The notes below the pieces were generated by a model. It did no database searches. It was not told the origin of the DNA and saw nothing but the letters and a program-made list of their open reading frames with translations. A stretch of DNA of 64,000 bases from Ancylobacter sp. WKF20. Its GTDB lineage: Bacteria; Pseudomonadota; Alphaproteobacteria; Rhizobiales; Xanthobacteraceae. The stretch lies in contig NZ_CP121679.1 of the NCBI RefSeq assembly GCF_029760895.1, positions 3,144,001-3,208,000 of the forward strand. The letters run 5' to 3'. Positions 11,710 to 33,472 of the stretch are shown here, in pieces. Position numbers and translations under genes: made by a program. Within the stretch, counting starts at the first letter, position 1, and every line of letters begins with the position of its first letter.

Positions 11710-14402
11710 GCCGGCTCCTTCTCGATGAGAAACCTGTAGAGCCGGTCGGCGGTGAAGGGCGTCGCCCGCAGCCGCACGCCGGTGGCATTGAAGATCGCGT
11801 TGGCAAGCGCGGGCGCCACCGGGTTGAACGGGCTCTCGCTCATCGACTTGGCGCCGAGCGGGCCGATGCGGTCATGGGTGTCGGCGAAGAACACCTGCGT
11901 CACCGGAACATCGGCGAAGGCGGGGATATGGTAGCCGCGAAAGCTCGGATTGCTCACCGCTCCCTGCCCGTCCATGCGCAGCTCCTCATAGAGCGTCGCG
12001 CCGATGGCCTGGGCGACGCCGCCCTCCACCTGCCCGCGGCACTGCATGGGGTTGATGACGGTGCCGGCATCCGCGCCATGCACCGAGCGCAGGATGCGGA
12101 TCTCGCCCGTGCGCCGGTGCACCGCGACCTCGAAGCCCTGCACGTTGAAGGCGACCGAGCGCGGGGTGCCATTCGCCTCGCCCACCGCCTCGAGCGGCGC
12201 GAGATCGCTGAGTGGCAGGCGCACCTCGCCCGCGATCACCTGATCGCCCGCGATCCGGCACGCCTCCACTGGCACGCCGAGCCGGGCGGCTGCCGCCTGC
12301 CGGATCATCAGGGCGAGCGCCTGAGCCGCCCTCAGCGTCGCGGCGCCCGCCACCACCGCGCCGGTCGAGCCATAGGCGCCGGTGTCATGCGTCACATGGT
12401 CGGTGTCGGACTGGCGGATGCTGATCTGACTGAGCGCTGCGTTCAGCGCACCGGCGGCAATCTGCGCGTGGACGGTGGTGGTGCCATTGCCGAATTCCGC
12501 CGTGCCGGTGGCAAGTTCGTACCGCCCCTCATGGGTGAGGCGCAACCGGGTCTGCCCGACATGGCCGCGCGGGGGAATGGTGTCGATCATCGCCGCTGCC
12601 ATGCCGCGCCCCACCGCCCAGTGCGGGCCGAGCGCGGGAAGCGGCCCGCGCAAGCCCGCTTCGACGGCATCAAGGCACTGGTCGAGCCCATAGCTGCCGA
12701 TCTCCACATCATCATGCCCCGTGTGGTCATCGGGGGTGATGACGTTCAGCCGGCGCAGCGCGAACGGGTCGATGCTGAGCCTGTGCGCCAGCTCGTCCAG
12801 CGCCGATTCCACCGCGAAGATGGTCTGGCTCAGCCCATAGCCGCGAAAGGCGCCGCTCGGCAGGCTGTTGGTATAGACGCTGCGCCCGTCCACTCGCTTG
12901 TTCGGGCAGCGATAGAGCGCGACGCACTCGCCCGCGCCATGGAACAGCACGCCCACCGCGTGATTGCCGTAAGCCCCGGTGTTCAGGAGCATGTCGAGCT
13001 GGATGGCGGTCAGCCGCCCGTCCCGCGTCGCGCCGAGCTTCACCGTGACCCGCATCGGGTGGCGGCTGGTGGAGGCGGCGAACTGCTCGGCGCGGCTATA
13101 TTCCAGCTTCACAGGCCGGCCGGTCTTCATGACGGCGAGTGCGACGATGTCCTCGACCAGCATTTCCTGCTTGCCGCCGAAGCCGCCGCCGACGCGGGCG
13201 GCGAAAACCCGCACTTTCTCGCGCGGCAAACCCATCAAATCCGCGAGGGCGTCGCGGGTCAGGAACGGCGTCTGGGTGGAACTGCGGAGCGTGAGGCGCC
13301 CGTCGCCATCCAGCCAGCCAATGGCGCCATGGGTTTCCAGATGCGCATGCTGGAGGCGCTGGCTCTGATAGCTCGCCTCGTGGATGACATCGGCCGACGC
13401 GAAGCCCGCCGCGACATCGCCGGTCTCGCTGGAGAGCCGGGCGACGATGTTGCGGGCGGGGTCGGCAATGCGTGATTGCGGCCCCTTCTCGCCATGCAGC
13501 GCCGGCGCGCCCTGTTCCATAGCGAGCTCGGGGTCGAACACCGCCGGCAGCGGCTCGTAATCGACACGGATCAGCCCGCAGGCCGCTTCCGCCACCGCCT
13601 CGCTTTCCGCCACCACGGCGGCGACGCGCTGGCCGATATGGCGGATGACCGGATCGAGCACGCGGGTGTCGTCCACATCGTCGGTCGGGTGATGATGGCG
13701 CGCGGTGGAGAACAGGCGCTCAGGCGCGTCCTCATGGGTGAGCACGGCGACGACGCCCGGCAGCGCCCGCGCCGCCGCCGCGTCAATCGCGCGGATGCGG
13801 GCATGAGGCACCTCCGCGCGCAGGATCTTCATGTGCAGCAGCCCGGCGAGTTCCCCCTCCGGCGCGACATCCATGGTGTAGCGCGCCGCACCGGTCACGA
13901 TGGCCGGCCCGGCGGGGGCGGGCACGTTGCGCCCGACCGCGCCACCCGCCGCGTCCGCATGGCAATGAGCGACGCCCGCCACCGCATCGGCGATAGCGCG
14001 GTAGCCGGTGCAGCGGCACAGATTGCCCTTCAGCGCACTGGCGAGATCATGCGTCTGGCTCTGGTCGAGCGCGGCGGCGGTCATCACCATGCCGGCCGTG
14101 CAGAAGCCGCACTGGAAACCCTGCGCGTCGAGAAAGGCCTGCTGCATCGGGTGCAGGCCGGGTTCGGGCGCAAGATCGGCCAGCCCCTCAATGGTCGTCA
14201 CCGCCGCGTCCTCGGCCCGGAAGGCCGGGTAGAGGCAGCTATGCACCGGCGCACCGTCGACATGCACGGTGCAGGCGCCGCAATCGCCGGCGTCGCAGCC
14301 CTTCTTCACCCCGAACCAGCCGAGCTCGCGCAACAGCGTGCGCAGGCACTGGCCGGGACGCGGCGCGGCCTCGAACGGGCGGCCATTGACGGTGAGCTTC
14401 AT
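11706..14402 (-). CDS. Xanthine dehydrogenase, fused [2Fe-2S] and molybdopterin subunits
   Basis: An 898-residue fusion. Residues 1-150 form the iron-sulfur subunit with plant-type cluster CDAGDCGAC...C and second cluster CGFC...CRC. From about 165 onward is the Mo-binding subunit, with GGGFGGK near residue 408, AFRGYG and the C-terminal LGAKSMSESPFNP block holding the catalytic Glu. Many bacteria encode these as separate chains, or fuse FeS with FAD; here the FAD subunit is the separate one, encoded just upstream with a four-base overlap. Oxidises hypoxanthine/xanthine to urate. No xdhC-type cofactor-insertion gene is in the window. Confidence 0.92.
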   Translation of the reverse strand: MKLTVNGRPFEAAPRPGQCLRTLLRELGWFGVKKGCDAGDCGACTVHVDGAPVHSCLYPAFRAEDAAVTTIEGLADLAPEPGLHPMQQAFLDAQGFQCGFCTAGMVMTAAALDQSQTHDLASALKGNLCRCTGYRAIADAVAGVAHCHADAAGGAVGRNVPAPAGPAIVTGAARYTMDVAPEGELAGLLHMKILRAEVPHARIRAIDAAAARALPGVVAVLTHEDAPERLFSTARHHHPTDDVDDTRVLDPVIRHIGQRVAAVVAESEAVAEAACGLIRVDYEPLPAVFDPELAMEQGAPALHGEKGPQSRIADPARNIVARLSSETGDVAAGFASADVIHEASYQSQRLQHAHLETHGAIGWLDGDGRLTLRSSTQTPFLTRDALADLMGLPREKVRVFAARVGGGFGGKQEMLVEDIVALAVMKTGRPVKLEYSRAEQFAASTSRHPMRVTVKLGATRDGRLTAIQLDMLLNTGAYGNHAVGVLFHGAGECVALYRCPNKRVDGRSVYTNSLPSGAFRGYGLSQTIFAVESALDELAHRLSIDPFALRRLNVITPDDHTGHDDVEIGSYGLDQCLDAVEAGLRGPLPALGPHWAVGRGMAAAMIDTIPPRGHVGQTRLRLTHEGRYELATGTAEFGNGTTTVHAQIAAGALNAALSQISIRQSDTDHVTHDTGAYGSTGAVVAGAATLRAAQALALMIRQAAAARLGVPVEACRIAGDQVIAGEVRLPLSDLAPLEAVGEANGTPRSVAFNVQGFEVAVHRRTGEIRILRSVHGADAGTVINPMQCRGQVEGGVAQAIGATLYEELRMDGQGAVSNPSFRGYHIPAFADVPVTQVFFADTHDRIGPLGAKSMSESPFNPVAPALANAIFNATGVRLRATPFTADRLYRFLIEKEPA

Positions 14403-15217
14403 GGCGCGGCTCCCGCCAGTTCGTCGCGGATTTCCTGCGCGAACAGAAAGGTCATGTGCCGCCGCCAGTCGGGCCGGCCATGGATGTCATCATAATAGAG
14501 CGCGTCGGGGATCGCCGAGCCGAGCCGAGCCGCGAGTTCGTCCCAGCCCGGCAGGTGATCGAAAGCCAGCACCACCGGGTGGCGCGTCGATGCGGTGATG
14601 GTAATATGAAACCCCTCCGCATCCCGCGTACCGATCAGCAGCACGCCCGAGCGGCCGAGCGGGGTAAGCGAGGCCCGGCGGAAGGCGGCGGCCCGGCGCA
14701 GCGCGCGGGCGGGAATGTCGATGGCCCGCAGCACCTCGCCCGGCGCCAGCGCGACATCGAGCGGCCCGCGCACGAAAGCGGCGACCGGCATCCGCCGCTC
14801 CGCCCCGTCCGGTCCCCAGATCAGCGCCTCGCCCTCCAACGCGCTGGCGAGCGAGGTCATCGGCCCGGCGGGCAGGCCGAGGCAGATATTGCCGCCCACC
14901 GTCGCCATGTTCCAGATCTTGAAGGAGGCAAGAAAGGCCCGGCAGCATTCACGCACCAGCCACCCCGCCCGCCAGTCGGCCGGGAGTTCCAACGCATCGA
15001 GCCTTGCTACCGTGGAGGTCGCGGCGATGGTGAGGCCCGCCTCGGTCAGTTCCAGCGGCGTCCAGCCGAGGCGCGTGAGGTCGATAAGGCGCCGCGCCGC
15101 CGGCTGCGGCTCAGAGAACAGCCAGGTGCCGCCGGCGAGACACACATCGCCCGGCGCCGGCGCGAGTTCATCGCGCGCGCGGGGCTTTAGAACCGCCTGT
15201 ACCGCGTTGAGATCCAC
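14399..15217 (-). CDS. Xanthine dehydrogenase FAD-binding subunit
   Basis: A 272-residue CoxM/XdhA-like FAD domain. Seen: CLAGGTWLFSEPQ in the first FAD-binding stretch and NMATVGGNICLGLPAGPM in the second, the family signature (ATVGGN). It passes electrons from the Mo-FeS chain to NAD or another acceptor. It sits between uricase (six-base gap) and the FeS-Mo fusion (four-base overlap). It is slightly short at the C-terminal end compared with typical 280-300-residue subunits. Confidence 0.9.
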   Translation of the reverse strand: MDLNAVQAVLKPRARDELAPAPGDVCLAGGTWLFSEPQPAARRLIDLTRLGWTPLELTEAGLTIAATSTVARLDALELPADWRAGWLVRECCRAFLASFKIWNMATVGGNICLGLPAGPMTSLASALEGEALIWGPDGAERRMPVAAFVRGPLDVALAPGEVLRAIDIPARALRRAAAFRRASLTPLGRSGVLLIGTRDAEGFHITITASTRHPVVLAFDHLPGWDELAARLGSAIPDALYYDDIHGRPDWRRHMTFLFAQEIRDELAGAAP

Positions 15218-15223
15218 CCGCGC

Positions 15224-16063
15224 TCAGCCCCGCCCCACCGTGCATTCGATCTGGCCATGCGGCTCGTCGGTGGGCGTGAACACCTGCCCGTCGAAAGAGC
15301 GGCCAAAGGGCGAGAGGTCGATCGGCAGATAGTGCTTGTTCGGGCAGGCGAGCGAGATTTCCGCGATCTCCGGCACGGCGGCGAGTGCCGCCTGTCCCAT
15401 CAGATACATGGTGTTCTGCACGCCGGGGCTGTAGGTGGTGGCGAAGACCTTGAGCGCCGCCGCGATGATGGCCGCATTGGCCGCCTCATAAGAAGCCGGC
15501 ACGCCCGCCCAGAGCCAGCCCGCCTCCATGGCGGTGGCGAAAAGCCGGTCGGCGGTCGGCTTCAGCGTGGTCGCCTCGTCGAACCAGTAATCCTCCCAGC
15601 CCGATTCCGTGGTCTTCAGAAAGGTGAAGCCGCTGACGCCGGAGGTGAGCGTGCGGGCTTCGCGGGTGGCGGCGAGCTTAACAAAGGGCCGGCCATTGCC
15701 GTCGAGGGTAAAGGCGTGGTCATGGGCGGCCCCGTCGACGAGGATGCGGCTCCACTTCGTCTCGCTCGCGCTCACCTCGACGCCCGACACATGGTCGTAG
15801 CGCGCGAGGAAATGATCGGCGATGACGCCGGCGAACACCTCATTCTCCGCCCCGACATGGTCGCGGGCGAGGAAGTTGACGATGTTCTTGACCGAATCCG
15901 TGGCGACGACGGAGCGGTTGTCGCCTTCGGTATAGGCGGCATCAAAAGCACCGGTGAGCATGACCTGCACATTCAGCTCGCGCACCTCGTGCCGCGCGCT
16001 GTCGCGCTTCACCCGCATCACCCTCACGCGGCCCTTGCCATAGCTGTTGCGGATCAGCGTCAT
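15224..16063 (-). CDS. Urate oxidase (uricase)
   Basis: A 279-residue cofactor-free urate oxidase, making 5-hydroxyisourate from urate, O2 and water. The N-terminal YGKGRVRVMRV carries the catalytic lysine, ATDSVKN the threonine and urate-binding aspartate, and LACPNKHYLPIDLS the conserved asparagine and histidine near the C-terminus. As first gene of the operon it is probably transcribed from the 16064-16280 gap. Its product is the substrate of the fused enzyme at the operon's other end. Confidence 0.94.
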   Translation of the reverse strand: MTLIRNSYGKGRVRVMRVKRDSARHEVRELNVQVMLTGAFDAAYTEGDNRSVVATDSVKNIVNFLARDHVGAENEVFAGVIADHFLARYDHVSGVEVSASETKWSRILVDGAAHDHAFTLDGNGRPFVKLAATREARTLTSGVSGFTFLKTTESGWEDYWFDEATTLKPTADRLFATAMEAGWLWAGVPASYEAANAAIIAAALKVFATTYSPGVQNTMYLMGQAALAAVPEIAEISLACPNKHYLPIDLSPFGRSFDGQVFTPTDEPHGQIECTVGRG

Positions 16064-18155: not shown

Positions 18156-18614
18156 ATGTCGGAACAGGAAAGCTCGTCGGTCGACTATCTCGGCCTTACC
18201 GCTGATGTGGTTGCCGCCTTTGTCGGCAACAATAGCGTCCCGGCGACAGAGCTCCCCGATCTCATCGCCAAGGTGCATGGCGCTCTGCTTCGCCTCACGG
18301 CCCCGGCGCCGGCAGCGGTGGAAGAAGTGCTGAAGCCCGCGATCCCGGTCAAGAAGTCGGTGACGCCGGAATATATCATCTGTCTCGAGGACGGCCTGAA
18401 GTTCAAGTCGCTGAAGCGCCATCTGCGCACGAAGTACAACATGACGCCCGAGGAATACCGGGCGAAGTGGGGCCTTCCCAACGACTATCCGATGGTCGCG
18501 CCGAGCTATGCGGAAGCGCGCTCCAACCTCGCCAAGAAGATGGGCCTCGGCCAGCAGCGCAAGAAGCCCGTCGCCCCGGCGCCGAAGCCCCGCACCCGCA
18601 AGAAGGCCGCCTGA
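18156..18614 (+). CDS. MucR/Ros family transcriptional regulator
   Basis: A 152-residue regulator of exopolysaccharide, motility and symbiosis genes in rhizobia. The family core [21 protein letters not shown]...[13 protein letters not shown] is clear at residues 69-108. Of the four Ros zinc ligands, Cys76 and His89 remain, but the second Cys is Asp79 and the last His position is Tyr94, so classical C2H2 zinc binding is doubtful; zinc-independent MucR homologues are known in Mesorhizobium. The Lys/Pro-rich tail is basic. A terminator follows. It sits directly upstream of a surface-glycan cluster, a plausible target. Confidence 0.93.
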
Positions 18615-18905: not shown

Positions 18906-20102
18906 ATGAAGATCCTGATGGTGTCCCCGACTCCCGCCTGCCCGCCCACGGCTGGCAACCGGGCGCGCATCCTCGCTTTGGCGCGCGCCGTGCGCGAACT
19001 CGGCCATGACCTGCATTTCGCCTATCTCGCCCCCCGCGGCGCGGACCCCGTCACCCGCGCGGCGCATATGGCGGAGTTTGGCGCGGACCATTTCCATTCG
19101 CTCGATCTCGACGGCAGGGACGCGCTCCAGCGCCGCCTGCAGGAGAAATGGCGTGCCGTGCGCCGACGCCTGCGTATCGGCGATCCGCACCTCTATCGGC
19201 TCGATGAGTGGTATTTTCGCAGCTACCATGTCGCGCTGCAGCAGCTCGACGCCGTGCATGGCTTCGATGCCGTCATCTGCGAATATGTGTTCATGTCCCG
19301 CGCCCTTGAGGCCTTCGACCCCCGGGCCCTGAAGATCCTCGACACCCATGACGCCTTCGGCGACCGCCACCTCGAATTCCTCAAGGTTGGCCGCCCCCCG
19401 CAATGGTACTCCACCTCGAAGGCTGAGGAACTGCGCGGCTTCCGGCGCGCCAATGCCGTCATCGCCATCCAGCCGAGCGAAGCCGAGAGGTTCGCCCGCG
19501 ACCTCGGCAGTGCGCCGCCGACATTGCACACGGTCAGCCACTTCCTGGATCTCTCCCGGCGTGCCCCCGCGAGCGCAGCCCCGGCGGCCGCCTTCGTCGG
19601 GTCGGGGAACGACATCAACATCAGCGCACTCGATCATTTGCGCCGCAACATCCTGCCGCGCATCCTGGCGCGGCGACCGGACTTCCGGCTCGTGGTGGCC
19701 GGCAGCATCTGCGAGCGCGTCATGGACCAGCCGGAGATCCTACGGCTCGGCCGTATCGACCACATATCCGACGCCTTCGCGCAGGCGCCGATCGCCCTCA
19801 ACCCGACGCTGTTCGGCACGGGCATCAACATCAAGCAGCTCGACGCCATGGCCGCCGGCGTGCCAAGCGTCAGCACCGAGACCGGCAGCAGGGGCTTTGC
19901 GGCGCCTGAACGCGACGGCTATATCGCCACCGTCCCCGACGAGGATCCGCAGGCTTTCGCCGATGCGGTGGTCGACCTCCTCGGCCAGCCTGACCGACGC
20001 GCCGCCATGGCCGACAACGCCTTCAGCGCCGCGCAGGCCTGGAATGCCCGCCAGACCGATGCGCTGAAGTCACTGCTGCTTTCAAAATCTGTGGTGAATT
20101 AA
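18906..20102 (+). CDS. Glycosyltransferase (GT-B fold, family 4-like)
   Basis: A 398-residue retaining-type glycosyltransferase. The N-terminus KILMVSPTPACPPTAGNRARI has the Gly-rich donor-side loop, and the C-terminal half has PIALNPTLFGTGINIKQLDAMAAGVPSVST, the nucleotide-sugar-binding region with its conserved acidic and Gly positions. It is the first gene of the glycan cluster, so it likely adds a sugar to a surface polymer or lipid carrier. Donor and acceptor cannot be told. Confidence 0.85.
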   Translation: MKILMVSPTPACPPTAGNRARILALARAVRELGHDLHFAYLAPRGADPVTRAAHMAEFGADHFHSLDLDGRDALQRRLQEKWRAVRRRLRIGDPHLYRLDEWYFRSYHVALQQLDAVHGFDAVICEYVFMSRALEAFDPRALKILDTHDAFGDRHLEFLKVGRPPQWYSTSKAEELRGFRRANAVIAIQPSEAERFARDLGSAPPTLHTVSHFLDLSRRAPASAAPAAAFVGSGNDINISALDHLRRNILPRILARRPDFRLVVAGSICERVMDQPEILRLGRIDHISDAFAQAPIALNPTLFGTGINIKQLDAMAAGVPSVSTETGSRGFAAPERDGYIATVPDEDPQAFADAVVDLLGQPDRRAAMADNAFSAAQAWNARQTDALKSLLLSKSVVN

Positions 20103-20166
20103 CTTCACATCCTTCTCGTCACACGGTTTCGTGTAGAGGTGCGATGTTGCGGTGCAGTGAGACAAC

Positions 20167-20889
20167 ATGACCAACGTCCGAGACCTGCTGGCGAACGTGT
20201 ATGAGATGGTCCGGCTGGACCTGCCGACCATCCTCTCCATGCGCCAGAACATCACATGGAAGGACGATGGCAGCCCGGTCACGGAGGCGGATCTGCGCGT
20301 GGAGAAGAACGTCCACGCCTATCTCGCCCAGCATTTGCCCGACCTCACCTTCATCTGCGAGGAAAGCTACACGCCCGGCGCGGAGGGCGAGGCGGCCGAG
20401 ACTGCTGCGGGCTGGACCGCCGTGCTCGACCCGATCGACGGCACCGAGAATTTCTGCTCCGGCTTCAAGGAATGGGGCGTCTCGCTCTCCATCTGGCGCG
20501 ACGGGGCGCATCAGGGCAGCGCGATCTTCCTGCCGGAGCTTGGGGACCGGCTGATGAGTGGGGAGGCCATTCCCTATCAGCGCTCGCGCATCATCGGCTT
20601 CTCCTCCTCGATCACCGACGAGTTGGCCGCGCGCGTGGCGCGGGCCGGCGAAGCGCGGATCATGGGCTGCGCGGCCTATAATCTGTTCAACGTCACGCGC
20701 GGGGCGCTGGCGGGGTTCTCAAATCCGGCTGGCGCCAAGAGCTGGGACATTCTTGCAGGTCTCATGCTGGCGCGCGAGCACGGCTGTGACATCGACGTGG
20801 AGGGGGCAAGCTATGGCGGACACTATCTCCGACCTGATCGCAAATATCGCTTCGACATACGCCACCGATACGATCTTCATCCTCGGTAA
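20167..20889 (+). CDS. Inositol-monophosphatase-family phosphatase
   Basis: A 240-residue Mg-dependent phosphatase. Metal-site motifs are present in order: CEES near residue 65, DPIDGTENF near 87-95 and SWDILAG near 191. Family members act on inositol phosphate, 3'-phosphoadenosine phosphates or sugar phosphates. Between a glycosyltransferase and a NeuB-type gene it may remove the phosphate from a sugar intermediate. The last 26 codons overlap the start of the next gene in another frame; the overlapped end (YLRPDRKYRFDIRHRYDLHP) looks like genuine conserved C-terminus. Confidence 0.85.
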   Translation: MTNVRDLLANVYEMVRLDLPTILSMRQNITWKDDGSPVTEADLRVEKNVHAYLAQHLPDLTFICEESYTPGAEGEAAETAAGWTAVLDPIDGTENFCSGFKEWGVSLSIWRDGAHQGSAIFLPELGDRLMSGEAIPYQRSRIIGFSSSITDELAARVARAGEARIMGCAAYNLFNVTRGALAGFSNPAGAKSWDILAGLMLAREHGCDIDVEGASYGGHYLRPDRKYRFDIRHRYDLHPR

Positions 20890-22351
20890 GGGGCCCTCGG
20901 CCGACCTGATCGACCCGCAGGTGTTTTCCTCGGCGCTGGTCATCGCGCTGAACGATGCCGAACAGATCGCCCCGGCCGACATCACTGTCTTCCATGCCGG
21001 CTGGGCCAAGGCGGGCATCGCCGCCAATGGCTACCGCTCGCGCGCCTATCTCACCTCGGCCGACTTCACCGCGCCGCAGCGCGAGGTGGCTTATGTCGAG
21101 CATGTGCCGCTGACGCAGGAATCCACCGATCTGATGATGCAGCGCTTCCAGGCGGGCGTGCTGAAGATCGAGGACGTGCTGTTCATGACCGCGCTGCAGG
21201 TGGCCCGCAAGGTCGCCGCCATTCGCGGGCGCCGGCAAACCGTCTACATGGTCGGCTTCGATTTCAACTTCGAGGCCGGGCACACCTATAGCGAGCGGGT
21301 GGAGCGTGACTTCACCGGGGCGACCGATGCCGACAAACGCCTCGTCTTCACCATGCAGGAATTCTTCTTCATCAACGCGCTCTACATCCTCAAGGGATCG
21401 GAGCTGGAGGTGAAGCATGTCGGCGCCAAGCCGTTCAGCGTGCTCTCCCCGACCGAGCTGAACCACATGTTCGGCCGGCAGCTGGAGCCGGCCAATGACG
21501 GGCGCCCGAACAAGGTCTCGGTGGTCGCCGAGCTGACCACCAACCATTTCGGTGATCGGCTGCGGCTGGAGCGGATGATCCGCTCCTCCAAGGCGTCGGG
21601 GGCGGACTACATCAAGCTGCAGAAGCGCGATGTCGCCAGCTTCTATGCGCCCGAGCAGCTCTCGGCCCCCTATGTCTCGCCCTTCGGCAAGACCTTCGGC
21701 GAGTATCGCCAGCAGCTCGAACTCTCGCGCGACGATTTCGCCTTCGTCGACAAGCTGTGCCGCGACCTCAATATCGGCTGGTTCGTCTCGGTTCTGGACC
21801 AGCCCTCCTTCGAGTTCCTGCGGGAATTCGACCCGCCGATCATCAAGCTGCCCTCGACCATTTCCGAGCACCGCGACTATCTCGACCATGTCTCGAAGAA
21901 TTACCGCCGCACGGTGGTGCTCTCGACCGGCATGACCGACGACGCCTATGAGCGCTGGGTGCTGGAGACCTTCACCGCCTGCGAGAAGCTGGTGCTGATG
22001 CAGGCGAACTCGGCCTATCCCACGCCGCTGGAAGATTGCGGCGTCGGCATCGTCCGGCACTATCACGAGCTGTCCAAGCAGTACCCGCACCTCATGCCGG
22101 CCTATTCGAGCCATGATTTCGGCTGGCTCGGCTCGGCGCTGGCGGTGGCGGCGGGCGCGCGCATGGTCGAGAAGCATGTGAAGCTCGGCAACACCGAGTG
22201 GGCGCACTTCGACGCCGTCGCCGTCGACCTCACCACGCCGGCCTTCAAGGAGTATGTCGACCGCATCCGCGAGGCAGAGCGCATCGTCGGCGAGGAAGAA
22301 AAGAAGGTCAATTCAAGCGAGCACCACAAATACCGCCGCAAGGCGGGGTGA
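20813..22351 (+). CDS. NeuB-type 3-deoxy-ulosonate synthase with N-terminal GT42/DUF115-like domain
   Basis: A 512-residue two-domain protein. ATG 20813 follows GGAGGGGG and lies inside the phosphatase gene. Residues 1-225 begin TIFILGKGPSADLID and IALNDAE, recalling the GNGPS..N pattern of GT42 sialyltransferases and DUF115 proteins. Residues 235-500 are a NeuB TIM barrel: VVAELTTNHFGD, ADYIKLQKRD, and metal ligands His434 (SSHDFG) and His455 (EKHVKL), 21 apart as in Neisseria NeuB. NeuB enzymes condense PEP with a hexosamine to give sialic, legionaminic or pseudaminic acid. The usual C-terminal SAF domain is missing. The product is unknown; the pairing with neuA supports a CMP-activated acid sugar. 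Confidence 0.8.
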   Translation: MADTISDLIANIASTYATDTIFILGKGPSADLIDPQVFSSALVIALNDAEQIAPADITVFHAGWAKAGIAANGYRSRAYLTSADFTAPQREVAYVEHVPLTQESTDLMMQRFQAGVLKIEDVLFMTALQVARKVAAIRGRRQTVYMVGFDFNFEAGHTYSERVERDFTGATDADKRLVFTMQEFFFINALYILKGSELEVKHVGAKPFSVLSPTELNHMFGRQLEPANDGRPNKVSVVAELTTNHFGDRLRLERMIRSSKASGADYIKLQKRDVASFYAPEQLSAPYVSPFGKTFGEYRQQLELSRDDFAFVDKLCRDLNIGWFVSVLDQPSFEFLREFDPPIIKLPSTISEHRDYLDHVSKNYRRTVVLSTGMTDDAYERWVLETFTACEKLVLMQANSAYPTPLEDCGVGIVRHYHELSKQYPHLMPAYSSHDFGWLGSALAVAAGARMVEKHVKLGNTEWAHFDAVAVDLTTPAFKEYVDRIREAERIVGEEEKKVNSSEHHKYRRKAG

Positions 22352-22378
22352 GTGCGGGGGCATTAGCAGGAGCGAAAC

Positions 22379-23110
22379 GTGACTGAGTCTCTGGCGAATA
22401 ATGGGCGGCGTGTCTGGGCGGTGGTCGCCGCGCGTTCGGGGTCGAAGGGACTGTCCAACAAAAATATCCGGTCTCTGGCGGGCACACCGCTTATCAGCCA
22501 CTCCATCCGTTTCGCACTCAAGACCGGCTTCTTTGAGCGTGTCATGCTCACGACCGACTCAGCGGAGTACGCGGCGATCGGAGAGCAGCATGGGGCGTGG
22601 GTGCCCTTTCTGCGCAGTCCTGAGGCTGCCGCCGACACCAGCATGGAGGAGCATATCCTCGAAGACATGGACCGCCAGCTTGCGCAGCATGGGATCACCC
22701 CGCCTGACGCCATCGTCTGGTTCCGTCCGACCTTCCCGTTTCGGGCCATAGCAGATCTACGGACGGCACTCGATCTTCTGGACGATGACGTGGATGCAGT
22801 ACGTCTGGTCGTCGAGGGCGAGCCAAGGCTCTACACGCTGACCGACGGCTACCTGAACCCGACATTTGATGATGGCGGCCGTTCGATGATCCGGCGCCAA
22901 GAATTCAAACCGGTTTATAAGGTCTTTCACACAGACATATTTTGGTACCGCAACATAAAATTGGGCGTGAAGTTTCTCGGAGATCGCGTGCGCGGTGTTC
23001 CTGTGCACAAGATCTGCGGCATTGACGTTGATTCAATCGAAGATTTCGAACTCGCCGAGGCAATTATCCAAGCAGGAGCCACGTCAGCCCAGCGTTACAT
23101 AAACCCGTAA
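22379..23110 (+). CDS. Acylneuraminate cytidylyltransferase family protein
   Basis: A 243-residue CMP-sugar synthetase starting at GTG 22379 (AGGAG eight bases ahead). The CTP-binding loop VVAARSGSKGLSNKNI sits at residues 14-29, followed by PLISHSIRFAL. It would activate the acid sugar made by the NeuB-type protein. Base composition is clearly lower in GC than the neighbours, especially the last third (many AAA, TTT, ATA codons), suggesting separate acquisition. Residues 150-210 are divergent from characterised NeuA, so substrate cannot be read. Confidence 0.87.
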   Translation: MTESLANNGRRVWAVVAARSGSKGLSNKNIRSLAGTPLISHSIRFALKTGFFERVMLTTDSAEYAAIGEQHGAWVPFLRSPEAAADTSMEEHILEDMDRQLAQHGITPPDAIVWFRPTFPFRAIADLRTALDLLDDDVDAVRLVVEGEPRLYTLTDGYLNPTFDDGGRSMIRRQEFKPVYKVFHTDIFWYRNIKLGVKFLGDRVRGVPVHKICGIDVDSIEDFELAEAIIQAGATSAQRYINP

Positions 23111-23191
23111 TACAGCTGACTTTGGCATTGAGTGTGCCTCCGCCCTGTTCCCGCCGCACGCGCAGGCACACCATCCGCTGAAAGATAGAGA

Positions 23192-25951
23192 ATGGCCACG
23201 ATACTCCTCTCGACGCTGCTGCAGCCTGCTGACCGGACCGCCGCGTTCTTCAGCAGCCTGATCGGCGCGCTCGAGACGAAGGGCCATCAGGTTTGGCTCT
23301 GGGCGCCGGGTCCGCTGGCGGGTTTCGAGGCCCGATGCCTGCCCATGCCCTATGCCATCCGCGATTGGCTGCGTCACTATCCGGTCGCGCCCTCGCCGGT
23401 TCGCGACGCCGAGACCGCCAAATGGATCGCGCGCCTCAAGGTGCTCACCCGTCAGGGCTGCCCGGCCTCGCTGGCGCCCCAGCTCTACGAGATCGTCCGT
23501 GGCGTCAGCGAGCATGTGCTGGCGACCGTCCAACCGGACCTGTTCGTCGCGTGGAACCCCTATGAGGTCCGCGTCGGTGTGACCTATGATCTGTGCCGCG
23601 AGCGTGGCATCGCCACGGCAACGCTGGAGCGGGCGCCGCTGCCGAATACCTGGCACCTCGACAGCCAGGACCATCTGGCCGGCTCACGCCTGCGCGCGCT
23701 TTCCTATGAGGACATCGCCGCCGATGACGCACAGGCGGAGCTTTGCCGGCAGACGACGGCGGCGCTTTTCGCAAAATTTCCGCTGGAGGGGCTCGACCGC
23801 TACCGGCAGCAGGGCGGCGGGACGGACCTGCCGCATTCCCGCAAGCGGATCGTGTTCCTGACCACCGACGACATGACCGTCGGCATCCACCCCACGGACC
23901 ACCCCGACCGCCGCATGCTGCTTCCGGGGTTCCTCAGCTCCTTCGACGCCGCGCGGGCCGTTGCCGAGGCGCATCCCGACAAGGATGTATTGCTCAAGGT
24001 CCATCCCAACGCGCTGCATCTGGTGGATGAGCAGGACTATCCCGGCAATGTCAGCATCGTCGACGGGCCACCGGCCCCGCTGCTGAAGACGGCGGATGTC
24101 GTCGTCTCGATGGGGGGATCGCTGACGGCCATGGCCATCGGGCTCGGCAAGCCGGTCGTCCATCTCGTCCACGATGCCTATCACGGCAAGGGCATCTTCT
24201 TCGAGATCGCGCAGCCCGATGAACTGGGGCGCGCCATCGATGCGGCGATGACCGCCAGCCCGGACGAGCTGGCCCGACGGCGGGCACGGTTCGATATCGT
24301 GTCCGGGTACATGCTCAGGTCCTATGTCGTCTCCCATCCCGCCGAGGTCGAGGGACTGTATGGCGTGGCGCAAGCGGTGGAGATGATCGACCGACATCTC
24401 GCCCAACGCGTCACGGCGCCGACGGCGGCCGCCGAGCTTCCCGCCGCGCCGGCGGCGGACGCGGCCCACGGGTTCCACCCCGCTGCGCCCTCCCCCGACG
24501 AGGTGCGCGCCGCCCTCACCGGGCCGTCCGAGCGCACCGTGTTCCTCGATTTCGACCACACGCTATTCGCCGGCAACACCACCGAGGAATATCTGCGGCA
24601 GGCCCGCCCGGCGCTGCTGGTCAGCCTCATCCTCGCCTTCGTGCGCGGCTTCCTGCCGTGGCGCAAATTCTTCGGCAGACACTGGTTCCGCTTCCGCGAC
24701 TATGCCGCCGTGGTCGCGGTGACGCTGCTGCTGCCGTGGAACCTCGCCCGCTGGCGCCGCAATGCCCCCGCGCTGTTCGCCGCGCGCGGCACGCATGAGC
24801 TGGCGCAGGCGCTCAAGGTCGTGCCGGCCGAGCGCACCGTCATCGTCTCCTTCGGCTTCGACATGCTGATCGGCCCGCTCGTCAAGGGCACGCATTGGGA
24901 GAGCTGCCGGCGCGCCTGCGTGCCGTTCCAGTTGCACCCACGCGTGCTGAAGACGCTGCGGCACGGCAAGGCGCGGCTCATTGGCGGGCTGTTCCCGCCG
25001 CGCGTCGTCGCCACCGCCGCGCTGGTGACCGATTCCGAGGACGACCGCGACCTGCTCGACCGGGTGAAAGTCCCCCTGCTCGTCGAGCCGGTCGGCGAGA
25101 AGAGCGCGGCGGAAGAATCCTTCTATCTGCCGATGCGCTACACGGCGCTGGCGAAATACAACGCCCATTATGTGCGCAAGCAGACGCTGTTCGTCGAGCT
25201 GCCCTTGCTGCTGCTCGCGACCCTGCCGCTCGCCGGCGCACCCTGGCTTTGGCTGGGCGCGGCGCTCGCGCTGTTCGTCTCCATGCTCGCCGTCTACGAG
25301 ATCGGCTATTTCGAGAACGATCAAGTCGCCGCCGCGCGCGAGGCGAACCCGACGCTGACGCCGATGGCCGCGCGCTTCCGCGATTTCCCGCTCGCCCGCC
25401 ATGCGTGGAGCTGGGCCATCGCGCTCGGGCTTGTCGGCGCGTTGCTGGCGAGCCTGCGCCTCACCGGGGGGGTGTTCGACAGCGACCTTTTCGCCATTTT
25501 GGCCGGTGTGTGGATCGTGGTGCTACTCGTGGTGCGGGGGCTGTTCGCGGCCTATAATCGCCTGCCCGAGGCGCGCCGGATCTTCGTCTACCCGCTGCTG
25601 CAGGCCGCCAAGCTGCTGGCCCCGCTGCTCCTCATCCCCGGCCTCGCGCTCGGCGCCGCTCTGCTATTGGCCCAGACCGTCGCGATGTGGATGACCTATG
25701 CAGTCTACCGCGCAGGTGGCGACAAGGCCATGGTTCCGCGAGAGACCGTCCGTCTGACCGCCTTCCTCGCTCTCGCGGCCGGAACGCTCCTTGCATCGCC
25801 GTCCGGCACGCTGCACACCGAAGCCGTGGCGGGTGTCCTGATCCTAGCCTGGCTGCTGCGTGAGCGCTGGGTAGGCGTCATCCGCCGACCGCTGGTGGCC
25901 GCAGCCAAGACGTTGAAGACCCGGCTCGCCCACCGCTTCGCCTCGCGCTGA
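23192..25951 (+). CDS. Three-module capsule-transferase/HAD/membrane fusion protein
   Basis: A 919-residue protein. Module 1 (1-400) resembles KpsC/KpsS-like or polysialyltransferase GT-B enzymes, with KVHPNALHL and ADVVVSMGGSLTAMAIGLGKPVV. An Ala/Pro linker (405-440) leads to module 2 (447-635), an HAD phosphatase with DFDHTLF as the DxD nucleophile loop and VTDSEDDRD as the late acidic motif. Module 3 (660-905) has about seven membrane segments; YEIGYFENDQ...REANPT near residue 702 faintly recalls the UbiA ND..D signature. A membrane glycosyl-phosphate transfer or phosphatase role on a lipid carrier is possible. I know no characterised protein with this order. Confidence 0.65.
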   Translation: MATILLSTLLQPADRTAAFFSSLIGALETKGHQVWLWAPGPLAGFEARCLPMPYAIRDWLRHYPVAPSPVRDAETAKWIARLKVLTRQGCPASLAPQLYEIVRGVSEHVLATVQPDLFVAWNPYEVRVGVTYDLCRERGIATATLERAPLPNTWHLDSQDHLAGSRLRALSYEDIAADDAQAELCRQTTAALFAKFPLEGLDRYRQQGGGTDLPHSRKRIVFLTTDDMTVGIHPTDHPDRRMLLPGFLSSFDAARAVAEAHPDKDVLLKVHPNALHLVDEQDYPGNVSIVDGPPAPLLKTADVVVSMGGSLTAMAIGLGKPVVHLVHDAYHGKGIFFEIAQPDELGRAIDAAMTASPDELARRRARFDIVSGYMLRSYVVSHPAEVEGLYGVAQAVEMIDRHLAQRVTAPTAAAELPAAPAADAAHGFHPAAPSPDEVRAALTGPSERTVFLDFDHTLFAGNTTEEYLRQARPALLVSLILAFVRGFLPWRKFFGRHWFRFRDYAAVVAVTLLLPWNLARWRRNAPALFAARGTHELAQALKVVPAERTVIVSFGFDMLIGPLVKGTHWESCRRACVPFQLHPRVLKTLRHGKARLIGGLFPPRVVATAALVTDSEDDRDLLDRVKVPLLVEPVGEKSAAEESFYLPMRYTALAKYNAHYVRKQTLFVELPLLLLATLPLAGAPWLWLGAALALFVSMLAVYEIGYFENDQVAAAREANPTLTPMAARFRDFPLARHAWSWAIALGLVGALLASLRLTGGVFDSDLFAILAGVWIVVLLVVRGLFAAYNRLPEARRIFVYPLLQAAKLLAPLLLIPGLALGAALLLAQTVAMWMTYAVYRAGGDKAMVPRETVRLTAFLALAAGTLLASPSGTLHTEAVAGVLILAWLLRERWVGVIRRPLVAAAKTLKTRLAHRFASR

Positions 25952-25965
25952 GAATGTAGGAACGC

Positions 25966-27807
25966 ATGAAGATCGACGGCATTTCCGAATTCTGGAGCCT
26001 TCTGTCCCGCACGCGGCGACGCGAGTTTATCGTGCTGCTGGGCTTCCAGTTCGTACTGAGCGTCCTCGAGTTCATCGCGGTCGGCGCGGTTCCTGCCTAT
26101 GTGCTGCTAATGAGCCGCTCGCAGGAGGCGATGGCTCTCCCACAGTTGCGGCCGTGGCTCGACTGGGTCGGTATCCACGACTCCGTCACCCTTATCTACG
26201 CGGGCGGCGTGGGCGTCATCGCGTTGTTCCTGCTGCGGGGCGCTTTCAACCTCGTGGTGTTGAAGGTGCAGGCCCGGTTCATGGCCGCGCTCGGCGGTGA
26301 TCTCTCGCTGCGGCTTTTCACGGCCTATCTGCACGCGCCCTACCTGTTCCATCTCACCCAGAACACCGCCCATTTCATCCATGTTGTCATGGGCGAGACT
26401 GGGCGCATGGGCGGCAATTTCCTTCAGCCACTGCTCACGGCCGCCCAGGCAATCTTCATCCTGGGGGCACTGACCACACTAGTCGTCGTGTCGGACCCCT
26501 TCCTCGCGCTGATGCTCGGCATCACCGCGGGCGGATCCTGCTTCCTCTTCATGCGGCTGAATCGGGAAAAGCTGCATCGCGTCGGCCTCGAGTTCAGCCG
26601 CCGGAACCGTCAGATCACACAGACTCTGAATGAGGGCCTCGGCTCCTATAAGCACACGCGGCTGCGGGGGCTTGAGGGGGATATCCGCGGCGAGTTCCAG
26701 CAGCATGCGCAGGTGCGCGAGGAGACCCAGCGGACGATGCGGTTCAATCAGGGCCTCTCGAAGCCGGTCTTCGAGACGGTGGGCCTGACGGCGCTCATCC
26801 TGCTGGTCTTCGTCATGCTGCTCCAGGGGCGCTCTCCGGACCTCGTGGTGCCCACACTGGCCATGCTCGGCGCCGTAGCCGTGCGCATGCTGCCGACGCT
26901 GAACCAGCTCGCGGTCGCGCTCAGCACCATGCGCTCGAACCTTTCGGCGGTTCACAGCCTTGTCGACGAGTACCGCGCCCTCGGCATCGGCCCGGACGAG
27001 CCGACGTTCGACACAGCGGGGACCGCCAAGCCATTAGCCATGGGCGACATCGTCTTCAGCGACGTGACCTATCGCTACCCTGGCCAGAACCACGACGCGC
27101 TGCAGAATCTCTCGCTCACCATCCCGGCCGGCAGCTCCGTGGCATTTGTCGGCCCGACCGGCTCCGGCAAGACCACCGCTGTCGACGTGATGCTCGGCTT
27201 CCTCGCCTATAGCGGCGGCGACATCACGGTGGGTGGGCGCTCCATCGGCGAGAACCTGGCGGGCTGGCAGCGGCTCATCGGCTATATTCCGCAGGCCATC
27301 TACCTCACCGATGCCTCGATCCGCCGCAACGTCGCGCTCGGCGTGCCCGAGAGCGAGATCGACGATGCCGCGGTCTGGCGCGCGCTGGAGGCGGCGCAGC
27401 TCACCGATTATGTCCGTGGCCTGCCGGAAGGGTTGCAGACCAATGTCGGCGAGCGCGGCGTGCGCCTCTCCGGCGGCCAGCGCCAGCGCATCGGCATCGC
27501 CCGCGCGCTGTATTATTCCCCCGAAGTACTGGTGCTCGACGAAGCCACCGCCGCGCTCGACAACGCCACCGAGCGTCGCCTGATGGCGGCGATCGAGGAG
27601 GCCAAGAGCGGCCGCACGCTGGTGATGATCGCTCACCGCCTGTCGACCGTGCGCAATTGCGACCGCATCTTCTTCATCAAGGCCGGCCGCGTCGCCGCTT
27701 CCGGCACCTATGACGAGCTGATCGCCACCTGCGCCGAATTCCGCGAACTGGCGCAGGTGCCGCAGATCGAGGATGCACCGCCCCTCGACCAGAGCGCTCA
27801 GGCCTGA
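25966..27807 (+). CDS. ABC exporter, fused membrane and ATPase domains
   Basis: A 613-residue half-transporter of the MsbA/PglK type. Residues 1-330 hold six predicted membrane segments. The ATPase follows: Walker A VGPTGSGKT near 396, Q-loop YIPQAIYL, signature LSGGQRQRIGIARAL, Walker B VLVLDEATAALD and the H-loop IAHRLSTV. Inside a glycan cluster it most likely flips a lipid-linked saccharide across the inner membrane, replacing a Wzx/Wzy route. It starts 14 bases after the fusion protein gene. Drug export is less likely from context. Confidence 0.88.
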   Translation: MKIDGISEFWSLLSRTRRREFIVLLGFQFVLSVLEFIAVGAVPAYVLLMSRSQEAMALPQLRPWLDWVGIHDSVTLIYAGGVGVIALFLLRGAFNLVVLKVQARFMAALGGDLSLRLFTAYLHAPYLFHLTQNTAHFIHVVMGETGRMGGNFLQPLLTAAQAIFILGALTTLVVVSDPFLALMLGITAGGSCFLFMRLNREKLHRVGLEFSRRNRQITQTLNEGLGSYKHTRLRGLEGDIRGEFQQHAQVREETQRTMRFNQGLSKPVFETVGLTALILLVFVMLLQGRSPDLVVPTLAMLGAVAVRMLPTLNQLAVALSTMRSNLSAVHSLVDEYRALGIGPDEPTFDTAGTAKPLAMGDIVFSDVTYRYPGQNHDALQNLSLTIPAGSSVAFVGPTGSGKTTAVDVMLGFLAYSGGDITVGGRSIGENLAGWQRLIGYIPQAIYLTDASIRRNVALGVPESEIDDAAVWRALEAAQLTDYVRGLPEGLQTNVGERGVRLSGGQRQRIGIARALYYSPEVLVLDEATAALDNATERRLMAAIEEAKSGRTLVMIAHRLSTVRNCDRIFFIKAGRVAASGTYDELIATCAEFRELAQVPQIEDAPPLDQSAQA

Positions 27808-27872
27808 CCCCTGGCCGGCCTGATCCCTCGCTCGCCGTACTGCCCGATGGCTCTCCTTCCTGCGGAATACCG

Positions 27873-28940
27873 ATGAACCAGGCCCCCTCGCGCGCCCCTA
27901 TAGATCCGCCTGCCCCGGCGCGCGCCGGCGCGCCCCTGAACATCACGGTGCGGCCGGGTTGGAACAGCCAGAACCCGTTCACCATCATGTTCGCCGAGGC
28001 ACTCGCCGCGCAGGGCAACACGGTGGGGGACCGGATCGGTGGGGTGCGCTTCTATCCGTTCGGGGCGGATGTGATCGTGCTGCACTGGCCGGACGAGTAT
28101 TTCTTCGTCCGCTCACTCAAGGCGACGGCGCGGGCTTTTCTGTTCCTGCTGGCGAAGTGGCTGCTGGGCGCCAAGCTCATCTGGGTGGTCCACAACATCG
28201 AGCCGCACGACAAGGACAAGCCGCCTTTCCCGACCGGTCGGCGGGCCCTGTTCGCCGCGATCGACGGGCTGGTCTTTCTGTCGGAAACCTCGCGCACGTT
28301 GCTCTATCAGCGCTGGCCGGAGCTGAAGGCAAAGCCCTTCACCGTGGTCTCGCACGGCCATTACAAGGGCCGCGCCATCGCGCCGATGACCGCGCCGCGG
28401 GCGGTGAGCGAGCCGGTACGCCTCGCCTATATCGGCCAACTGCGTCCCTACAAATCCGCCGACACGCTGATCGAGCTGGTGCGCGCTTTGCCGCCGGAAT
28501 CGGTGACGCTGAAGGTCGGCGGCAACTGCCCGGATAAAGGCTTTGCCCAGCGCCTGCGCCAGTTCGCCGAGGGCGCGCCCAATGTCGCGCTCTCCCTGGG
28601 CTTGCTGTCGGACAGCGAAATCGAGCAGCAGGTGGATGGCGCGGATGCGGTCATTCTGCCTTATCGCGACATCCTCAACAGCGGCTCGGCGATCTATGCC
28701 CTCTCGCGCGCGCGGCCCGTGCTGGCGCCCCGGCTCGGCAGCCTGATCGAGCTGCAGCAGCAGGTCGGCGCCAACTGGCTCTATCTCTATGAGGGCGAGT
28801 TCAACGCCGAGGTGCTGGCGAGCTTCATCGCCTGGCTGAAGGCCCCGGGCCGCGAGGGGGAGCCGGATCTCAGCAGCCATGAATGGGAACCGATCGGCCG
28901 GCAGCTCGACGGCTTCTTCCGGCAGCTGAAGGCCCGCTAG
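27873..28940 (+). CDS. Glycosyltransferase (GT-B fold)
   Basis: A 355-residue glycosyltransferase with a 25-residue Pro/Ala-rich N-terminal tail before NITVRPGWNSQNPF. Seen: VVHNIEPHD at the acceptor side, RLAYIGQLRPYKSADTLIELV beginning the C-terminal Rossmann domain, and AVILPYRDILNSGSAIYALSRARPVLAP for donor binding. It resembles the GumK/beta-1,3- and mannosyltransferase group. It is last in the glycan cluster; an inverted-repeat element begins immediately after its stop. Confidence 0.82.
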   Translation: MNQAPSRAPIDPPAPARAGAPLNITVRPGWNSQNPFTIMFAEALAAQGNTVGDRIGGVRFYPFGADVIVLHWPDEYFFVRSLKATARAFLFLLAKWLLGAKLIWVVHNIEPHDKDKPPFPTGRRALFAAIDGLVFLSETSRTLLYQRWPELKAKPFTVVSHGHYKGRAIAPMTAPRAVSEPVRLAYIGQLRPYKSADTLIELVRALPPESVTLKVGGNCPDKGFAQRLRQFAEGAPNVALSLGLLSDSEIEQQVDGADAVILPYRDILNSGSAIYALSRARPVLAPRLGSLIELQQQVGANWLYLYEGEFNAEVLASFIAWLKAPGREGEPDLSSHEWEPIGRQLDGFFRQLKAR

Positions 28941-31910: not shown

Positions 31911-33422
31911 TCAGGCCGGCTGGGCGGACGTGCCGCGCAGCTTGCCGAACAGGTGGCCGAGGACCGGCCAGATGCCGGCGAGGACACCAAGGCCCATGAT
32001 CGAGGCCACGAGGCCGTTCGACCAGAACACCGAGATCGAACCGCCCGAGCCAAGCAGGGACTGGCGGAAGGATTCTTCGGCGGCGTCGCCGAGGACGATC
32101 GCGAGCACCAGCGGCGCCAGCGGGTAGTTGGTCTTCTTCAGCAGATAGCCGAGGACACCGAAGACCATCATCATCAGCACGTCGAACACGTTGTTGTTCA
32201 CCGTGTAGGCACCGATGGCGCAGACCACCAGGATCACCGGGGCGATGATCGAGAAGGGGATGCGCAGGATCGAGGCGAACAGCGGCACCGTGGTCAGCAC
32301 GAGGATGAGGCCGACAATGTTGCCGAGATACATGGAGGCGATGAGGCCCCACACGAACTCAGCCTGCTCGACGAACAGCATCGGACCGGGCTGCAGACCC
32401 CAGATCAGCAGGCCGCCGAGCAGAACCGCGGCGGTCGGCGAACCGGGGACGCCCAGCGCCAGCATGGGCAGCATGGCGGCCGTGCCGGCGGCGTGGGCGG
32501 CGGTCTCGGGGGCGATGACGCCCTCGATCTCGCCATTGCCGAAGTTCTTGCCGTTCTTCGACACGCGCTTGGCGATGCCATAGGCCATGAAGGAGGCCGG
32601 AGTGGCGCCGGCCGGGGTGATACCCATCCAGCAGCCGATGACGATGGAGCGCAGCGACGTCATCCAGTAACGGGGCAGCGTCAGCCAGGTCTTCCACACC
32701 ACCTTGGGGTCGATCTTCGCCGACTTGCCGCGGAATTCGAGGCCCTCTTCCATGGTCAGCAGGATCTCGCCGATGCCGAAGAGACCGATGACCGCGATGA
32801 GGAAGTCGAAGCCGTTGAGCAGTTCGGTGACGCCGAAGGTCAGGCGGAGCTGACCGGTGACCATGTCGAGGCCGACCGCCGCGAGGGCAAAGCCGATCAT
32901 CATGGACACGATGGTCTTGGCCGGCGGCTCCTTGCTCATGCCGACGAAGGAGGCAAAGGCGAGGAAGTAGACCGCGAATTTCTCGGCTGGACCAAACTGC
33001 AGCGCGAACTGGGCGACCAGCGGCGCGATGAGGGTGATCATCACCACCGCGAAGAAGGCGCCGATGAAGGACGAGGTGAAGGCCGCGGTGAGCGCTTCAC
33101 CGGCTCGTCCTGATCGGGCCATTGGATGCCCGTCAAAGGTTGTGGCCACCGACCAGGGTTCACCGGGGATGTTGAACAGCACCGAGGTGATGGCGCCGCC
33201 GAACAGGGCGCCCCAGTAAATACAGGTCAGCAGGATGATCGCCGAGGTCGGCGACATGGAGAAGGTGAGCGGCAGCAGGATGGCGACGCCATTGGCGCCG
33301 CCGAGTCCCGGCAGCACGCCGATGATGACGCCGAGCAGGATGCCGATGGCCATCAGGAGGATGTTGAACGGGTCGGATGCGATACCGAACCCGTGGTAGA
33401 GATAGGTGAAATTCTCAAGCAT
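31911..33422 (-). CDS. Tripartite tricarboxylate transporter large permease TctA
   Basis: A 503-residue inner-membrane protein of normal TctA length with about 11-12 hydrophobic segments. The family signature GVLPGLGGANGVAILLPLTF is at residues 36-55, and a second related GITPAGATPASFMAYGIAK half-motif near 265 reflects its internal duplication. It forms the channel with TctB and takes substrate from the TctC receptor. Substrates of this class include citrate, tartrate, aromatic acids and others; here it is unknown. Confidence 0.94.
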   Translation of the reverse strand: MLENFTYLYHGFGIASDPFNILLMAIGILLGVIIGVLPGLGGANGVAILLPLTFSMSPTSAIILLTCIYWGALFGGAITSVLFNIPGEPWSVATTFDGHPMARSGRAGEALTAAFTSSFIGAFFAVVMITLIAPLVAQFALQFGPAEKFAVYFLAFASFVGMSKEPPAKTIVSMMIGFALAAVGLDMVTGQLRLTFGVTELLNGFDFLIAVIGLFGIGEILLTMEEGLEFRGKSAKIDPKVVWKTWLTLPRYWMTSLRSIVIGCWMGITPAGATPASFMAYGIAKRVSKNGKNFGNGEIEGVIAPETAAHAAGTAAMLPMLALGVPGSPTAAVLLGGLLIWGLQPGPMLFVEQAEFVWGLIASMYLGNIVGLILVLTTVPLFASILRIPFSIIAPVILVVCAIGAYTVNNNVFDVLMMMVFGVLGYLLKKTNYPLAPLVLAIVLGDAAEESFRQSLLGSGGSISVFWSNGLVASIMGLGVLAGIWPVLGHLFGKLRGTSAQPA

Positions 33423-33472
33423 GGGCGTTTCCCTGGCAGGCGGCTCGCGGTGCCCGCCTTATCTGTCGGTGG

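Follow-up and report, generated by a model that had tools for sequence, protein, structure and literature searches.

An acid sugar is known to be made by phosphate logic in the Kdn-9-phosphate pathway of Bacteroides thetaiotaomicron and Prymnesium parvum, the established example, in which mannose-6-phosphate is converted to Kdn-9-phosphate; in the available part of its description it comprises a NeuB-family-type synthase, a phosphatase and a CMP-synthetase, without dedicated genes for the aldose precursor (PMC6200933). In Serratia, too, KDN is known as the product of a capsule locus that encodes NeuA and NeuB: in the accessible portions of that paper, the KL1 and KL2 loci of Serratia marcescens contain neuA and neuB, no other sialic acid precursor gene is named, NeuB carries an extra domain and KDN was found (PMC9000132). 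Group 3 capsule clusters of Escherichia coli and Enterobacter have been reported as well, with glycans left undescribed in the text available (PMC10433991). The present analysis deals with a comparable locus of Ancylobacter sp. WKF20, located in a stretch of 64,000 nucleotides (contig NZ_CP121679.1, positions 3,144,001 to 3,208,000; hereafter the window), in which a NeuB synthase fused to a second domain is preceded by a gene for an IMPase-family phosphatase and followed by one for a cytidine monophosphate (CMP)-sugar synthetase.

Synthase, phosphatase and CMP-synthetase occur together, with no other precursor gene, both in this locus and in other loci carrying the fusion, and this is the likeness to the Kdn-9-phosphate pathway. 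On the other hand, the phosphatase of the known pathway is of the HAD type, whereas here it belongs to the IMPase family, the synthase has no SAF (antifreeze-like) domain but a Maf/GT42-like domain fused to it, and Kdn is a presumed product. In Serratia the extra domain of NeuB is instead COG1082 isomerase/epimerase-like, and no phosphatase appears in the main text of the paper. Four stretches of the enterobacterial group 3 clusters have the same genes for CMP-synthetase, IMPase and NeuB fusion, but there the trio is flanked by KpsMT-like and Capsule_synth proteins. We consider that the set should be redrawn as a portable unit of IMPase and fused NeuB, a variant of the NeuB/phosphatase/CMP-synthetase kind. 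Among the matches listed from the open-licence PMC literature, no title or abstract start dealing with the fusion or its IMPase pairing was found.

The IMPase and NeuB-fusion unit

Open reading frame (ORF) calling in the window revealed seven same-strand ORFs at 18906-28940 (+), either overlapping or a short distance apart, which likely form an operon. The genes at its core are the following:

20167..20889, + strand: IMPase-family phosphatase of 240 amino acids, candidate ulosonate-phosphate (or aldose-phosphate) phosphatase (PF00459, 91 bits, cut-off 27)
20813..22351, + strand: NeuB fusion of 512 amino acids (PF03102, 137.4 bits, cut-off 22.1), whose first 77 bp overlap the IMPase gene
20813..21487, + strand: N-domain of the fusion, residues 1-225, with a predicted fold like that of CMP-ulosonic-acid transferases
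21488..22351, + strand: NeuB barrel of the fusion, residues 226-512
22379..23110, + strand: CMP-sugar synthetase of 243 amino acids, PseF/NeuA-like (CTP_transf_3, PF02348, 62.2 bits, cut-off 22.6)

An original prediction, made from the sequence without database searches, had listed a NeuB-type synthase, a CMP-sugar synthetase, a phosphatase and an ABC exporter, and all four are present with Pfam scores above the cut-offs. It spoke of a six-gene set while naming seven functions, and seven ORFs were found; the second domain of the NeuB protein, absent from it, was seen here.

One scan of genome contigs recovered the fusion in at least 44 loci, at 51-90% identity, a count that is a lower bound because exact patterns were used. 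The carriers are Alpha-, Beta- and Gammaproteobacteria, Actinobacteria (Nesterenkonia, Demequina and Garicola), a Deinococcales metagenome-assembled genome and a cyanobacterial one, which from their names we take to represent four phyla. Among 198 genomes of the family (12 in the genus), the fusion was found at E ≤ 1e-60 in the organism's own genome and one congener only; the scan also gave a further Ancylobacter (L006) with a fusion 65% identical. In 33 of the 44 loci the IMPase gene lies directly upstream of the fusion, its end overlapping the fusion ORF when the latter is counted from its first start codon, and it lies farther upstream in L037 (852 bp) and L028 (3.4 kb). Residues E65, E66, D88, I90, D91, G92, T93, W193 and D194 of the phosphatase, which include the DPIDGT and WD metal-site motifs, are invariant in 32 of 32 rows.

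Distances were compared over 36 rows (the window, 31 of the 44 loci and four enterobacterial copies), of which four lack an IMPase nearby and seven a CMP-synthetase; the loci outside are L011, L014, L016, L027, L029, L030, L032, L033, L036, L038, L039, L040 (broken) and L044. Those of the NeuB barrel correlate with those of the N-domain (r 0.911, n 36) and of the IMPase (r 0.875, n 32; as high in 0 of 999 permutations), versus r 0.153 for the CMP-synthetase (n 29; as high in 11 of 999), whose distances are rough because its rows are very divergent (mean identity 25%). A CMP-synthetase was located within 3.5 kb of the fusion in 31 of the 44 loci by models built from these same loci and hence biased towards them; the protein of the window scores 93.9 with TIGR03584, against a cut-off of 205.7. 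Between the window and A. radicis (L001) the fusions are 90% identical and the CMP-synthetases just 23%, while the CMP-synthetases of the window and of Novosphingobium (L018) share 64% identity. The adjacency, the distance correlations and the divergent CMP-synthetases indicate that IMPase and fusion mostly travel as one unit and that the activation step is exchanged between lineages. The full set does not behave as the single system first proposed; what recurs across loci is the IMPase with the NeuB fusion, usually accompanied by some CMP-synthetase.

In A. radicis the gene order is the same (L001:11555-13322), with a different CMP-synthetase and an added methyltransferase gene; for the rest of the operon, best matches there show 64-92% identity. 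In Nesterenkonia pannonica (L040:9925-11539) the fusion is split into several ORFs.

The barrel (residues 226-512) keeps K268, Q270, K345, S348, S371, H434 and H455 in 36 of 36 fusions; these positions were aligned to 2wqp and 8h2c, and their catalytic lysine, glutamine, serine and histidine roles are presumably those of Neisseria NeuB. The SAF domain, which in Neisseria NeuB contacts the N-acetyl group, gave no Pfam match in the fusion, and the protein stops at residue 512, directly after the barrel. Equivalog scores are far under the cut-offs, both for N-acetylneuraminate synthase (TIGR03569, 116 of 399.65) and for PseI (TIGR03586, 100.8 of 340.25). The enterobacterial records examined give the fusion no more specific name than 'N-acetylneuraminate synthase family protein'.

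Regarding the N-domain (residues 1-225), its predicted model matches the fold of CMP-ulosonic-acid transferases (Maf/MptE/GT42-like) by VIA-align, where the Z scores are 9.9 for MptE/HPPK, 9.3 for thiamine pyrophosphokinase and 9.0 for SteA, and unrelated folds appear lower down in the list. The fold assignment, which implies no activity, depends on VIA-align because the PDB sequence-profile search gave no match and PDB Foldseek nothing at E ≤ 0.001. There is likewise no Pfam match; comparison with an MptE-like family by hhalign gave a probability of 37%, and VIA-align of the whole fusion returned barrel matches only. Unlike the Maf flagellin glycosyltransferases, the GT42 sialyltransferases and MptE-HPPK, to which it bears a likeness by predicted fold only, the N-domain is fused to NeuB. 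It is well conserved: of 15 positions checked, which include a GxGxS loop, N47 and GxD, all but H61 (33 of 36) show no variation across the 36 fusions. A viral library gave 10 matches at E ≤ 0.001, each uncharacterised or nameless. Phage origin was considered and rejected, PHROGs being empty for fusion and IMPase and phages yielding 2 records over about half of the query at 23-27% identity.

Precursor supply and competing explanations

The search for precursor genes covered the organism's own genome (one contig, 4.63 Mb), which contains one NeuB protein. It gave no match to Epimerase_2 (PF02350, NeuC/LegG type), NanE (PF04131) or GlcNAc 2-epimerase (PF07221). Four hits to PF02719 were obtained (29-52 bits), one of them RmlB and one RmlD, each over its NCBIfam cut-off, and across the four PseB reached at most 35.9 of 407.75 and LegB at most 133.5 of 475, PseG and dehydratases outside these hits being unsearched. 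Eight hits to PF01041 include one strong DegT aminotransferase (359 bits), which among the NCBIfam models matches PseC best, though with a score of 235.3 where the cut-off is 423.5. The missing NeuC, Leg/Pse dehydratase and aminotransferase genes, noticed originally for the gene set, are missing genome-wide for the families searched, PseG apart, and none of them turned up outside the window. Two proteins of the genome have a MannoseP_isomer domain, so mannose-6-phosphate is likely available in the host.

The IMPase pairing in most lineages seen, the SAF-less barrel with its intact catalytic positions and the lack, in the families searched, of an amino-sugar source suggest that the substrate is a non-amino aldose phosphate and that the IMPase dephosphorylates an intermediate ulosonate phosphate. 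The core would then be a two-gene unit making a 3-deoxy-2-ulosonic acid by phosphate logic, a reading towards which we incline with barely better than even confidence. The NeuB domain would condense phosphoenolpyruvate (PEP) with a sugar phosphate of central metabolism, most likely mannose-6-phosphate, the coupled IMPase would strip the phosphate from the resulting ulosonate phosphate, and the lineage-exchangeable CMP-synthetase, judged by its family, would activate the free acid, CMP-Kdn being the likeliest product. The N-domain may either transfer the acid or bind CMP-ulosonate as a feedback or channelling device. In this organism the acid would probably become part of a lipid-linked glycan, assembled and flipped by two GT4-type enzymes, a 919-amino-acid fusion and an MsbA/PglK-type ATP-binding cassette (ABC) protein. 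The idea that an acid sugar is made in the absence of NeuC and of the Leg/Pse precursor genes is upheld as far as the absent gene families go, while the product itself is a deduction. A bolder and rather unlikely extension is that a single polypeptide synthesises a ulosonic acid and also consumes the CMP-activated form. Its Maf/GT42-like domain would be an active CMP-ulosonate transferase and the fusion, with the coupled IMPase, would constitute a mobile cassette for a C6, C8 or C9 acid hitherto undescribed from such genes, spread over at least four phyla and including uncharacterised E. coli capsules.

Several observations weigh against the phosphate route to Kdn. The IMPase was not found near the fusion in 9 of the 44 loci, all from Nesterenkonia or Garicola, with a flank of less than 430 bp upstream in L029 and L033. 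Eight of these nine genomes were searched (L026 was outside): an orthologue is encoded elsewhere in L031 and L032, and none was detected at E ≤ 1e-10 in the other six (L022, L029, L030, L033, L036 and L040). Either another phosphatase serves there, or the assemblies are incomplete, or the IMPase part of the reading is wrong. Moreover, the gene content fixes no aldose, and no data obtained here separate phosphate logic from a free-sugar logic, which counts against both. In the latter, to which we assign a low probability, the IMPase would first free an aldose such as mannose and NeuB would condense the free sugar with PEP to give Kdn directly, as many bacterial NeuB proteins do with N-acetylmannosamine. 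The same conserved pair of IMPase and fusion fits it, many bacteria start from unphosphorylated sugars in the available text of PMC6200933, and the word phosphatase is absent from the main text of the Serratia paper (PMC9000132); yet a pool of free mannose would be wasteful.

Somewhat less probable still is another ulosonic acid derived from a shorter or different sugar phosphate, C6 from triose phosphate or C8 from pentose phosphate, which in E. coli perhaps corresponds to the K3 capsule. In this respect, the cluster of E. coli KE47 comprises the trio, an O-acetyltransferase and rhamnose genes with no gene annotated udg, and one of the 11 carriers of its allele is of type O4:H5. NeuB chemistry, however, yields a 3-deoxy and not a 4-deoxy acid. 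K3 (O4:K3:H4) is reported with 4-deoxy-2-hexulosonic acid in the title of a cited reference, and in the accessible text of PMC10433991 the K3 and K98 loci lacked assignment as of 2023; on the contrary side, a 2026 paper, so far as its available part indicates, may already assign K3 (PMC13171606). The link between the KE47-type cluster and K3, a lead from composition only, was not adopted because a six-carbon product is implied and plain NeuB chemistry gives a 3-deoxy acid. Very improbable, and largely refuted, is an ordinary product of the fusion (Neu5Ac, legionaminic or pseudaminic acid) derived from precursors supplied elsewhere in the genome. Membership of the NeuB and PseF-like families and the DegT aminotransferase closest to PseC would agree with it, as would matches to the NeuC model at E ≤ 0.001 in 17 of 34 relatives' genomes, a search covering 35 of the 44 loci less one; nevertheless, these exceed the cut-off in 2 of the 34 and in none of the other 32. 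The whole-genome family searches and the NCBIfam scan of five hit proteins went against a Neu/Leg/Pse pathway, with no epimerase of the three families, neither PseB nor LegB in the proteins matching PF02719 (PseG unsearched) and a fusion scoring far below the NeuB and PseI cut-offs. Compatible with the other readings, and with a sizeable chance though short of even, is an N-domain that is nucleotide/pyrophosphate kinase-like or purely structural and has no role in CMP-sugar transfer. The similar Z scores of MptE/HPPK, thiamine pyrophosphokinase and SteA and the lack of a Pfam glycosyltransferase match favour it, and other transferase families adjoin the trio, such as the polysialyltransferase-family protein in L002; the near-complete conservation of the positions checked and a genetic setting of CMP-ulosonate metabolism argue against it.

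Export genes, neighbours and capsule clusters

The remaining genes of the operon and its putative regulator are these:

18156..18614, + strand: MucR/Ros-type regulator 5' of the operon, putative member only (PF05443, 172.2 bits)
18906..20102, + strand: GT4-type glycosyltransferase of 398 amino acids (PF13692, 71.1 bits, cut-off 27)
23192..25951, + strand: 919-amino-acid fusion with a weak KpsC-like stretch, a HAD-like segment under the cut-off and a C-terminal part without family match
25966..27807, + strand: ABC half-transporter of MsbA/PglK type, 613 amino acids, putative lipid-linked glycan flippase/exporter (ABC_tran, 90 bits, cut-off 25)
27873..28940, + strand: second GT4-like glycosyltransferase of 355 amino acids (PF13692, 22.2 bits, under the cut-off of 27)

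The first of the two glycosyltransferases initially proposed is well supported by its score and the second falls below the cut-off. The 'capsule-type transferase fusion' is weakly borne out: the first 440 amino acids of the 919-amino-acid protein have no Pfam match at E ≤ 1, its HAD match reaches 24.3 bits (cut-off 27), and a 98-amino-acid stretch is 28% identical to a Capsule_synth-domain protein of E. coli KE47 (E 8e-5, single comparison), a second E. coli Capsule_synth protein giving a negligible match (E 0.017). KpsS-like and other names were discarded, being without Pfam support at E ≤ 1. The protein is 70% identical to its L001 counterpart, and in flanks of up to 10 kb on each side of the 44 loci its family is present, besides the window, only in this sister species, which rules out a conserved export half across the system in the flanks examined. 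The ABC half-transporter scores 297.2 bits with the MsbA model (cut-off 602) and 254.8 with the PglK model (cut-off 1000); in L002, L015, L038 and L039 the fusion has nearby half-transporters that align with most of this protein at 25-29% identity, and other loci give shorter ABC matches. The export part looks lineage-specific. A distinct export logic for the whole set was not confirmed, with the 919-amino-acid family in one sister species only and the E. coli trio in KpsMT-like/Capsule_synth clusters. As for the lack of kps genes, no KpsMTDE or KpsCS is among the seven operon genes, which agrees with the prediction, but elsewhere in the genome Capsule_synth matches two proteins, one clearly at 265.7 bits and the other marginally at 20.5 bits (cut-off 20). 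A separate polysaccharide locus of the same genome (G000:C1:284314-292918, equivalent to L072:6315-14919) contains a pyruvyl-transferase-domain protein, a Capsule_synth protein, an SDR and a GT4.

Other enzymes adjoin the fusion in several loci. MptE-like (Maf-type) domain proteins stand beside it in alphaproteobacteria (L023:6470-9334, L043:5970-8585 and L015:10475-11362; 31.1, 35.8 and 56.1 bits, cut-off 34.6). TPR repeats occur in two of these proteins, and a family member is also found at L037:5587-8415; they are perhaps dedicated transferases of the acid sugar. A polysialyltransferase-family protein (L002:13034-14101, PF07388, 83.1 bits), 1-2 kb from the fusion and by clustering of a family also present in L009, L038 and L039, is a candidate for polymerising the acid of the fusion. 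A second, ordinary NeuB-like protein, 28-31% identical and with an adjoining CMP-synthetase-family ORF, is encoded some kb from the fusion at L021:19376-20251 and L033:8129-9004 (minus strand), which suggests two acid sugars per locus.

Among plasmids nine matches to the fusion were obtained, three of which cover more than 80% of the query at 43-45% identity (two E. coli records, one of them a chromosome, and one Enterobacter). The KE47-type allele (≥99.9%) is carried by 11 of 5426 E. coli genomes, always on the chromosome, and the plasmid-type allele by 4 of 5426, three on plasmids (≥99% identical) and one chromosomal (87% over 74% of the query). In all four enterobacterial stretches (L056-L059) the order is cytidylyltransferase-type gene, IMPase and fusion, downstream of polysaccharide-export and ABC genes; KE47 has its O-acetyltransferase gene between the first two, and rhamnose genes follow the trio on the same strand in three stretches and are on the opposite strand in the fourth. 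The flanking proteins of KE47 have Poly_export, ABC2_membrane, ABC_tran and Capsule_synth domains, which we read as KpsMT/KpsCS. The plasmid L056 is given in Table 1 of Hong 2023, and the precursors named for the new clusters in the available text of that paper include 'CMP-sialic acid' and 'myco-inositol', without structures (PMC10433991); the latter label would come from the IMPase.

Around the operon, the MucR/Ros-type regulator is also found upstream in A. radicis, and genes at 11706-16063 resemble, as judged by eye, purine degradation of the xanthine-dehydrogenase and urate-oxidase type. G+C is 63% across 20001-24000 against 65.5-70.8% in the other bins up to 30 kb, which hints only weakly at acquisition because equally low bins (62.9-64.1%) occur at 32001-36000 and 50001-52000 of the window.

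If the proposed reading is true, an IMPase gene next to one for a SAF-less NeuB with a fused CMP-ulosonate-transferase-like domain, in that order, would be a marker of acid-sugar production without the usual precursor genes, and the unit could yield a synthase of Kdn or of a new sugar for glycobiology. The chemistry of capsule clusters whose glycans have no description would then become testable with two purified enzymes.

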